Shown: in pieces, positions 41,845 through 44,176 of the stretch
How the letters are laid out: the number at the start of each line of letters is the position of its first letter
Position numbering within the stretch: the first letter of the stretch is position 1
Source of the DNA: an uncultured Erysipelotrichaceae bacterium
GTDB lineage: Bacteria > Bacillota_I > Bacilli_A > RFN20 > CAG-826
Length of the DNA: 64,000 nt
Direction of reading: 5' to 3'
NCBI GenBank assembly: GCA_900314865.1
Contig: OMWW01000003.1
Span: 124,001-188,000 of the forward strand
Position numbers and translations under genes: made by a program
Notes under the pieces: model-generated
What the model was told of the DNA's origin: nothing
Database searches by the model: none
What the model saw: only the letters and a program-made list of their open reading frames with translations

Positions 41845-42363
41845 ATGATTCACATCGTTTTGTATCGTCCTGAAAAACCACAAAACACGGGGAATATAAT
41901 GAGGACTTGTGTTGCTATTGGGGCAACACTTGACATCATTGGTCCCCTCTCTTTTTCTTTGGATGAGAAAGCGATAAAAAGAACGGGATTAGACTATATC
42001 GAATCCCTTAAGTGGAATTACTTTGAAAATTACCAAGATTACCTTAAAGAATATCCAAACGCAAATACTTACTATGTAACTAGATATTCAAATAAGGTTT
42101 ATTCAACATTTAACTTTAAAGATTCTATTACTGATATCTTCTTAATGTTTGGAAGAGAGTCGACTGGAATTCCACACGATATATTAAGAGAACATCCTGA
42201 TCGATTATTAAGAATTCCGATGGTTCCAGAAGCTCGAAGTTTAAACCTTTCTAACTCCGTAGCAATCGTGGTGTATGAGGTTTTAAGGCAACAAGGATTT
42301 ACTAATTTAAGCACCGCAGAAGCCATAAAAGGTGAAGATTTCCTCTTAAAAGAAGCAAAATAA
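41845..42363 (+). CDS. trmL: tRNA (cytidine/uridine-34 2'-O)-methyltransferase
   Basis: 172 aa SPOUT methyltransferase: RPEKPQNTGNIMRTC at the N-terminus, MFGRESTGIP motif 2 and ARSLNLSNSVAI motif 3 of the knotted SAM site. It methylates the wobble ribose of leucine tRNAs. Abuts ppa with no gap; last gene of the pfp-atp-ppa operon. Confidence 0.95.
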   Translation: MIHIVLYRPEKPQNTGNIMRTCVAIGATLDIIGPLSFSLDEKAIKRTGLDYIESLKWNYFENYQDYLKEYPNANTYYVTRYSNKVYSTFNFKDSITDIFLMFGRESTGIPHDILREHPDRLLRIPMVPEARSLNLSNSVAIVVYEVLRQQGFTNLSTAEAIKGEDFLLKEAK

Positions 42364-42427: not shown

Positions 42428-42455
42428 TTGACTTTATAAAAAAAGAGACTACAAT
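42428..42455 (+). promoter_or_regulatory. Promoter of the 74-aa protein gene
   Basis: TTGACT (42428-42433), 16-base spacer, TACAAT (42450-42455). One of the best promoter matches in the window; predicted leader about 60 bases. Confidence 0.75.
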
Positions 42456-42469
42456 ATTTGCCATCATTA

Positions 42470-42520
42470 GTATTACCTCGTCCTAAGCACGACGTTAAAC
42501 TACTGAAAGAGAGGTAATAC
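42470..42520 (+). promoter_or_regulatory. Hairpin sequestering the ribosome-binding site of the 74-aa gene
   Basis: GTATTACCTC (42470-42479) is the exact reverse complement of GAGGTAATAC (42511-42520), which contains the GAGG ribosome site 8 bases before the ATG. The 31-base loop has a further small stem (CGTC 42479-42482 with GACG 42491-42494). The fold would hide the ribosome site, so translation probably needs a trigger: temperature, a ligand, an RNA or a protein, possibly the product itself. Confidence 0.65.
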
Positions 42521-42522
42521 AA

Positions 42523-42747
42523 ATGAAATACTACACCCTTACAGCGGTTATCCATGGACAACCAGTCAAACTTAAAAGGGCAATGTTCATCTCAAGGGAC
42601 GACGCGATTAATTACATGTTTGATTACTTTGAGAAACATTATCTCTTCGGTTTGGAAGTAAGAGACGAACATATTGTTGACGGTAATAAGCACAGCATTG
42701 AATATGTTTGCGATTTCCACAATCGTTTCACTGTGACACGTAACTAA
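42523..42747 (+). CDS. Small protein of unknown function (74 aa)
   Basis: A soluble, aromatic-rich protein with no signal peptide or membrane helix; segments include YYTLTAVIHGQPV and RAMFISRDDAINYMFDYF. It has its own strong promoter, a hairpin over its ribosome site and its own terminator, so it is an independently regulated unit between the energy operon and rqcH. No family recognised. Confidence 0.7.
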   Translation: MKYYTLTAVIHGQPVKLKRAMFISRDDAINYMFDYFEKHYLFGLEVRDEHIVDGNKHSIEYVCDFHNRFTVTRN

Positions 42748-42767
42748 TATTTCGGATAATAAAAAAG

Positions 42768-42790
42768 AGCCTGATACTATCAGGCTTTTA
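42768..42790. terminator. Bidirectional terminator
   Basis: GCCTGATACTATCAGGC stem with A6 on the left and TTTTAGTTT on the right. On the minus strand the T-run is the stronger one, serving rqcH. Confidence 0.8.
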
Positions 42791-44176
42791 GTTTACAAAT
42801 CGCTTTTGTTCTTTTAATAGAAGCTTAGTGGATTCCCTTATTTCATGAATTGTAATAGTTTCATATTTAAGGAGATTAACTTGTCCTAATCCTTCACCCT
42901 TTTTAACATCTTTAATATCAGCGATATAAACATCTCCATTTTCTAAGTTAGATAAGATTAAGGCGATTTCACTAGCTGTAAGAATTACTTCTTCATTAGG
43001 GTCATTATCAAATATTACGACATGGGCTCCGTGATAGTCACTAACATGGAGGTATATGTCGTTTTTATTTGCTTTTTTGAAGGTTAAATAGTTATTTTGC
43101 TCTTTGTTTTTTCCAAAACCAATTTTTATTCCATTAACTGTTAAATAATAAGGTAGTCTAGCATCAACTTCTTTAACTCTTTTATTACTCTTATGTTTTG
43201 GAAGATATTTTTTATATAATTCTTCAATTTCTTGATCTGAGTAATATGGGAAAATATCAAGAATATGATTGATGTCTTCGATACTTTGTTCCGCAATTGA
43301 AATTTCTCTTTCATCATTTTCGATTGTTCGACGAGCCTTTTTATATCTTTCAAAATACTTATTAGCGTTATCTTTTGCTGAGATATCTTTATCGTAGGTT
43401 TCAGAAATGGAAGAGATATATTTGTTTAGATTCTCTTTGTCATACATCAAAGTTAAAAGTGTTTCTCCAACTTCTTTGTAGGATAGTTTTTCTTTTGCGT
43501 CTTCCATCTCATTATTAAGTACTTTGATCTTTTTATTTAGTGACTTAATTTTTTGTTTAAGGAAATTATATAGTGGGAGCGATTTTTCTTTCTTGCTCTT
43601 GCTATCAATTTCTAGGAGGTATTCGTTGATTTCTTTTTTATATTTTTCCATGTCGAACTCTTTAATCACTAAAGTTGGGTTTGGTTCGATTGGAATGTAT
43701 TTCATTCCTCTGAGGATTGGTCTGGATGCACTTAAATCGGTGTAGTGCTTTGCAAATATGATATTTTCACCTTCGTCTAGGATGATGAGGTTATTGACGG
43801 TAGGAATCAATTCCAAAACAAGATAAAAGACTTCCTTCTGATAAAACTCGTTTGTTTTTGTTAAAGAGAATTTTATTACTCTATCATTATTGATTTGCGA
43901 TACATCAGTAACATAGCTTCCTTTAAGATATTTTCTTAAATTTTCGTTGAGACTTCCTAAAGTTGTAGTGGTGTTATAACTATCATCAATAAAGCCAATA
44001 AATGGATTAGAGTGATTTAAAGACAGCAATAGTCTCTCTTTTTTGTAGAATGAAAATGAAAGAAGAACGTCACTTGAATTTGCAACAGTGACGTTAGTAA
44101 CGAAATTACCTAAAACCTTAGTTTTGATTTCATCAACAAGTAGAATGATTCCTTTAAGATTTAACCTTGGTGTCAT
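42788..44176 (-). CDS. rqcH: Ribosome quality control protein RqcH (NFACT family)
   Basis: 462 aa, somewhat short for the family (about 550). NFACT-N with the NDR motif (Asp-Arg pair) near residue 104, a coiled-coil middle (about 200-330) and NFACT-R at the C-terminus (YHGAHVVIFDND, ILTASEIALIL). RqcH binds obstructed 50S subunits and adds alanine tails marking stalled peptides for degradation. Earlier annotations call it fibronectin-binding protein. AT-rich -10-like sequences (AATAAT/TATAAT) abut the ATG and no ribosome site is seen. Confidence 0.93.
   Translation of the reverse strand: MTPRLNLKGIILLVDEIKTKVLGNFVTNVTVANSSDVLLSFSFYKKERLLLSLNHSNPFIGFIDDSYNTTTTLGSLNENLRKYLKGSYVTDVSQINNDRVIKFSLTKTNEFYQKEVFYLVLELIPTVNNLIILDEGENIIFAKHYTDLSASRPILRGMKYIPIEPNPTLVIKEFDMEKYKKEINEYLLEIDSKSKKEKSLPLYNFLKQKIKSLNKKIKVLNNEMEDAKEKLSYKEVGETLLTLMYDKENLNKYISSISETYDKDISAKDNANKYFERYKKARRTIENDEREISIAEQSIEDINHILDIFPYYSDQEIEELYKKYLPKHKSNKRVKEVDARLPYYLTVNGIKIGFGKNKEQNNYLTFKKANKNDIYLHVSDYHGAHVVIFDNDPNEEVILTASEIALILSNLENGDVYIADIKDVKKGEGLGQVNLLKYETITIHEIRESTKLLLKEQKRFVN

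Follow-up and report, generated by a model that had tools for sequence, protein, structure and literature searches.

In tisB, a 5' H-type pseudoknot (S1 stem = 9, S2 = 5) accompanies a sequestered ribosome-binding site (RBS) and is required for 30S/S1 binding, with a standby site ~100 nt upstream of the RBS (PMC7708055). The preQ1-I riboswitch is likewise a compact H-type pseudoknot, with an A-rich third loop (PMC11625349). Autogenous leaders of ribosomal proteins, such as the S15 pseudoknot, and the Rfam family GP20-b (RF03003) complete the set of described systems against which we compare the locus reported here.

The leader in question belongs to a 74-codon gene at 42428-42790 of the window (the whole 64-kb stretch of DNA analysed). 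It resembles tisB in having a 5'-proximal H-type pseudoknot plus a sequestered ribosome site, a likeness of RNA structure alone; unlike in tisB, the pseudoknot is nested within the stem that hides the RBS. The linkers seen in these leaders are short and A-rich. With preQ1-I it shares a small H-type pseudoknot whose A-rich loop (L3) lies just upstream of the Shine-Dalgarno sequence (SD), but its conserved bases differ, it has an extra stem (P1) and it has no queuosine gene. As in ribosomal-protein autogenous leaders, there is in cells one leader type per gene family; unlike in S15-type leaders, the core turns up again in phages, in which searches found no homologue of the gene. The GP20-b consensus, gGuC-agcccgca-GgC-gUAAAA-gugcgg, is compatible with the same H-type pseudoknot (GUC/GaC plus a loop-tail helix), whereas its Rfam model holds only S2 and a second hairpin. 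As the first half of that consensus is, on our reading of the structure, the same pseudoknot, the kind has been touched before, under a model that missed its first stem. Compared with GP20-b, our leader has P1 and lacks the second hairpin. In Rfam 15 it has no relevant match even at E 10.

The gene unit and its outer stem

The gene stands singly with its own promoter between a 172-aa tRNA-methyltransferase-like gene upstream, 41845-42363(+), and a 462-aa gene, 42788-44176(-), that converges on it. A first-pass annotation had listed a promoter, a leader of ~60 bases, a 10-bp repeat covering the GAGG site, 74 codons and a terminator, all of which we confirmed in the sequence. The features, with the evidence for each, are as follows:

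42428..42455, + strand: promoter, -35 TTGACT (42428-42433), 16-nt A-rich spacer ending in GAGAC, -10 TACAAT (42450-42455); sequence, with the layout recurring before homologues
42465..42468, + strand: CAUU extending P1, paired with AAUG 42522-42525, which includes the start codon; duplex prediction, minimum free energy (MFE)
42470..42479, + strand: 5' arm of P1 (anti-SD), DNA GTATTACCTC, RNA GUAUUACCUC; sequence, MFE, comparison of leaders, duplex prediction
42480..42482, + strand: 5' strand of S1, GUC, which a pair C42479-G42494 may extend to four; unchanged or with compensating changes in relatives, GAC/GUC in phage phiEF-1.1
42483..42490, + strand: 8-nt loop CUAAGCAC (consensus CYNRGCAN), of which 42486-42489 are the 5' strand of helix S2; comparison, covariation
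42491..42494, + strand: 3' strand of S1, GACG; invariant or compensated in relatives
42495..42499, + strand: A-rich loop L3, UUAAA; last three A invariant in alignment A4
42501..42504, + strand: tail UACU, 3' strand of S2; covariation
42511..42520, + strand: 3' arm of P1, DNA GAGGTAATAC, RNA GAGGUAAUAC, containing the SD GAGG (42511-42514); sequence, comparison, duplex prediction
42523..42747, + strand: open reading frame of the 74-aa orphan protein, from ATG 42523 to stop TAA 42747; confident AlphaFold model of a beta-beta-alpha-beta-beta-beta fold (pLDDT 93)
42768..42786, no strand assigned: bidirectional terminator-like inverted repeat, common to the converging gene 42788-44176(-); sequence, simple scan

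The leader length of ~60 nt takes transcription to start ~7 nt past the -10. The simple scan scored the terminator on the minus strand, since the plus strand offers no more than TTTTAG. The region shows no enrichment of promoter-like sites (7 observed, 9.1 expected). A promoter of the same layout, with its 16-nt spacer, lies upstream of nearly all core-bearing homologues, and two of the four genome-wide matches to a strict promoter pattern fall before the two paralogues of the gene. The unusual -10 context RGACTA is also seen in the promoter of an S16-like ribosomal protein gene (G000:C4:11884-11912).

Profile searches placed the 74-aa family in 53 of the 279 genomes of the order. Its named relatives are metagenome-assembled genomes labelled Bacilli, Erysipelotrichaceae or Bacillales, many of which bear isolate names of rumen type, and the source genome itself holds a second copy. 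Gene neighbours vary freely among relatives, and the gene therefore behaves as a promoter-leader-gene unit, which agrees with the first-pass view of an independently regulated small gene. Profile and structure searches found no relative of the protein in Pfam, PHROG, NCBIfam or PDB; the best Foldseek E value against PDB (0.19) and the best aligned Z (4.3) were both uninformative, with no clear structural relative.

The P1 arms are exact complements separated by a 31-nt spacer. By itself such a repeat is unremarkable in DNA this rich in AT: exact 10-bp inverted repeats with loops of up to 60 nt were found at 15 distinct centres across the window, where Markov controls gave 9.3. With the SD in its 3' arm beside an ATG, it occurs once in the window and never in 20 Markov controls. 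The duplex is predicted at -15.9 kcal/mol, and the minimum-energy z-score is only -1.75. Conservation, not folding energy, is the real evidence for the stem. Duplex scores for P1 in 39 leaders of homologues averaged z -3.1 relative to shuffles of the 5' segment, with 28 leaders reaching 2/100 or better. In seven of the nine P1 pairs both partners have changed, so that the conserved pairing of 42470-42479 with 42511-42520, proposed as a check in the first pass, was indeed found. The sequence of P1 varies while its pairing persists, whole-structure measures across the leaders surpass both shuffles and slides, and in many leaders an upstream CAU pairs with the start codon as well. Comparison of leaders thus shows the SD-hiding stem to be genuine and to persist among related gut bacteria.

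The core within the stem

What the first pass overlooked is that P1 encloses a sequence-conserved core, GUCC-YNRGCAN-GAC-NWWAAA followed by a short tail. Its form in the leaders is [N]GUC-CYNRGCAN-GAC[N']-NWWAAA with a tail of AGGC, CURC or CCGC and a few variants. The small hairpin covaries at its outer N-N' pair (C-G, U-A, A-U, G-C), and pairing of the tail with loop bases R-G-C makes an H-type pseudoknot. In our leader S2 comprises A42486-U42504, G42487-C42503 and A42489-U42501, while C42488 stands opposite A42502 as a mismatch. Among cellular cores, S2 pairs form in 83% of cells as against 12-33% when the strands are slid, and the covariation score is 0.191 against 0.133, with 2 of 500 shuffles as high; taken by themselves, the cellular cores offer moderate evidence for the pseudoknot. 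No loop-tail link beyond S2 was seen.

Among cellular genomes the core is close to a hallmark of the family. A covariance model of the leader gave 43 strong matches (E <= 1.6e-7) in 224 family genomes, all in leaders of the 74-aa family, and the bare core pattern gave 43 matches in the 279 genomes of the order (reversed control, 1), 41 of them before genes of the family. One of the two others, L125, precedes a 29-codon membrane peptide; a match in G276, antisense within a coding sequence, was rejected as chance. The protein tree shows a clustered distribution of the core, with its loss in several lineages.

The first-pass annotation had offered an RNA thermometer, with P1 melting as temperature rises to expose the ribosome site, and the pairing of both SD and AUG in P1 is what such a device would use. 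A perfect 10-bp helix of the predicted stability argues against it, however, as do the named homologues, mostly from rumen or gut samples where temperature is steady, and the invariant loop and pseudoknot, which thermometers do not need. The leader did not match the known thermometer families ROSE and FourU. We therefore regard a thermometer as very improbable, the information residing in the conserved pseudoknot within the stem.

Copies in viral genomes and candidate partners

We searched IMG/VR with the core pattern, GUUAAA fixed and the tail left out. Viral contigs yielded at least 120 matching stretches, against one for the reversed pattern. As the tail lay outside the search pattern, its pairing is an independent test of S2. 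Among the matches listed, 97 distinct viral cores were compared: all three S2 core pairs are present in 86; R4:t5 is paired in 90 (A-U 62, G-C 26) and N3:t6 in 78, each above all 500 shuffles; and all four S2 pairs occur together in 68, whereas swapping of tails leaves a mean of 42 and at most 51. S1 is compensated in named phages, as CGAC/GUCG in Lactobacillus phiEF-1.1. These covariation results strongly support the pseudoknot as a class.

Among the same listed matches the viral copies show no outer stem (z -0.06), and P1 is therefore an addition of the cellular gene. Sequence comparison thus establishes that P1 pairs, that the pseudoknot exists and how far it has spread, and that phage copies lack P1. 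The phages that carry the pseudoknot infect actinobacterial, cyanobacterial, alphaproteobacterial and Firmicutes hosts, lineages that mostly possess the 5'-to-3' nuclease RNase J.

Thirty loci were scanned against Rfam. The sole GP20-b match (cut-off 36.2 bits) was L338, a core-bearing locus outside the order that lies before a phage scaffold-like gene (47.5 bits); L353 reached 20.5 bits, short of its cut-off. Most viral copies scanned went unmatched, as did our leader, and most copies scanned fall below every Rfam family. A GP20-b scan of the whole source genome gave no match, as did the controls of that scan. In a literature search that covered few subscription papers, we found no account of such a phage pseudoknot.

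The viral copies have a characteristic placement. Among the matches listed, 70 of the 110 that bear S2 follow a same-strand open frame ending <=80 nt upstream, and the commonest distance from stop codon to element is 6 nt (22 of the 48 copies within 2-11 nt). Readthrough of the stop codon was considered for the 6-nt spacing and rejected, given a median in-frame extension of 14 codons and a mixture of stop codons. By plain counts among the matches listed, the 54 downstream proteins include 10 that match phage scaffold families in Pfam, 6 that match GP88 and 2 that match SSB, and a PhoH gene is also among those preceded by the element. It stands between head and scaffold genes in the phages Staphylococcus B236, D6E and phiEF-1.1, and directly 5' of a tRNA gene in the Arthrobacter phage Molivia and the Nostoc phage NMeng1. 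In the phage loci L227, L231, L237, L345 and L349, a terminator-like hairpin and T run immediately precede the pseudoknot of the scaffold gene. Such placements would fit a general role in RNA stability or ribosome docking better than a metabolite sensor.

A small-molecule riboswitch, with a preQ1-I-like pseudoknot binding the ligand and P1 acting as the expression platform, would account for the compact H-type topology with its A-rich third loop (PMC11625349), the invariant loop bases and the occlusion of the SD by the outer stem. The leader has no match to the preQ1 covariance model under permissive filters, however, or to any other riboswitch model; the phage copies lack the outer stem; and scaffold, SSB and tRNA genes make an odd set for one metabolite. 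We consider a riboswitch, the ligand sensor of the first pass, unlikely.

Autogenous repression, also raised in the first pass, would have the 74-aa protein bind the pseudoknot of its own leader, lock P1 and shut off its own translation. The near exclusivity of the core to this family among cellular genomes, the self-contained unit with its changing neighbours, and the core and promoter before both paralogues in the genome all speak for it. Against it, the same pseudoknot is common in phages (the stretches counted above), and no homologue of the protein was found in the viral and phage collections searched; nor is the protein basic (pI 7.0; mean 7.4 for core-bearing members), and it has no clear fold match. 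We therefore hold it to be rather unlikely, and what survives of the first-pass interpretation is the self-contained gene, the SD-hiding stem and its conserved pairing, while the thermometer and, less firmly, autoregulation do not. Because the core also occurs in viruses without P1, both are less likely than a general pseudoknot that interacts with the ribosome or a nuclease.

The reading we favour, with a rough probability of 0.45 and so somewhat short of even odds, is that the leader is a two-layer cis-acting RNA, a docking or barrier pseudoknot nested in a gene-specific SD-occluding stem. Strong transcription would yield an mRNA with ribosome site and start codon closed in P1. The inner layer, a compact H-type pseudoknot of the kind also found between phage genes, would dock or block universal machinery, and the outer layer, P1, would close over SD and AUG, making initiation slow unless a factor acting on the pseudoknot opens P1 or locks it. 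The candidate partner is the 30S subunit or ribosomal protein S1, in a standby role as in tisB; alternatively, a 5'-to-3' nuclease may be stalled by the pseudoknot. We infer from this arrangement that P1 probably limits translation and that the partner is shared machinery. Against the two-layer reading, S1, which standby in E. coli requires, has a weaker role in low-GC Bacilli, no long single-stranded standby region is evident in the leader, a nuclease barrier leaves P1 unexplained, S2 has its C-A mismatch in our leader, and the core is lost in some family members. More tentatively, and as a possibility we would doubt rather than defend, the ~27-nt H-type pseudoknots may form a widespread class of 5'-to-3' exonuclease roadblocks or ribosome-docking elements in phage operons, taken into a cellular gene by rumen Bacilli through nesting in an SD-occluding stem.

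Recurring in phages of distant hosts, at a near-fixed distance past stop codons and ahead of genes for scaffold proteins or tRNAs, a 27-nt pseudoknot should have a partner common to most bacteria, and a few biochemical assays could therefore settle its identity. The cellular 74-aa gene provides a clean one-gene test bed, and the phages of S. aureus and Lactobacillus are laboratory models.

Core-less leaders and membrane-peptide arrays

Several leaders without the core have features of their own. Upstream regions of distant homologues in other families (L087, L088, L175, L024, L085) lack it and carry cre-like sites such as TGAAAACGTTTTCA, hinting at carbon-catabolite control. In the leaders of the core-less homologues L084 and L086, the SD-pairing CUCC is kept and is followed by a different hairpin and then UUAAA, as if that hairpin had replaced the core. 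Weak covariance-model matches of about E 5e-4 (G145, G180, G184, G201 and others) were rejected, as they come from a repeated element that has a CCCC/GGGG stem at the SD but lacks the core. At L127, L128 and L134, all contig ends, there is a repeated element, possibly an insertion sequence, in whose first gene a GGUACCCC/GGGGUACU stem covers the SD.

Peptides of 25-29 aa with a single membrane helix form tandem arrays with a period of ~200-250 nt at L183/L190 (G219:C99), L182, L181, L184 and L125. Each has a 5' hairpin GUC-AAAGACAA-GAC (covarying to GAC/GUC), UUAAAACUCGGAACGGA and a hidden SD, and its 3' GGCUCCGUUCU is complementary to its leader. Judged by this layout, the transcripts look like type I toxin mRNAs. 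The membrane-peptide loci scanned had no Rfam match above cut-off. At L125, 3001-3079 (-), a member of this peptide family carries the pseudoknot core loop GUCCCAGGCACGACGUUAAAA of the 74-aa gene; there GGUUCC/GGAAC takes the place of P1 and lies away from the SD. The membrane-peptide pattern has 49 matches in 29 of the 224 genomes; the source genome has a locus of this kind at G000:C3:111194-111209.
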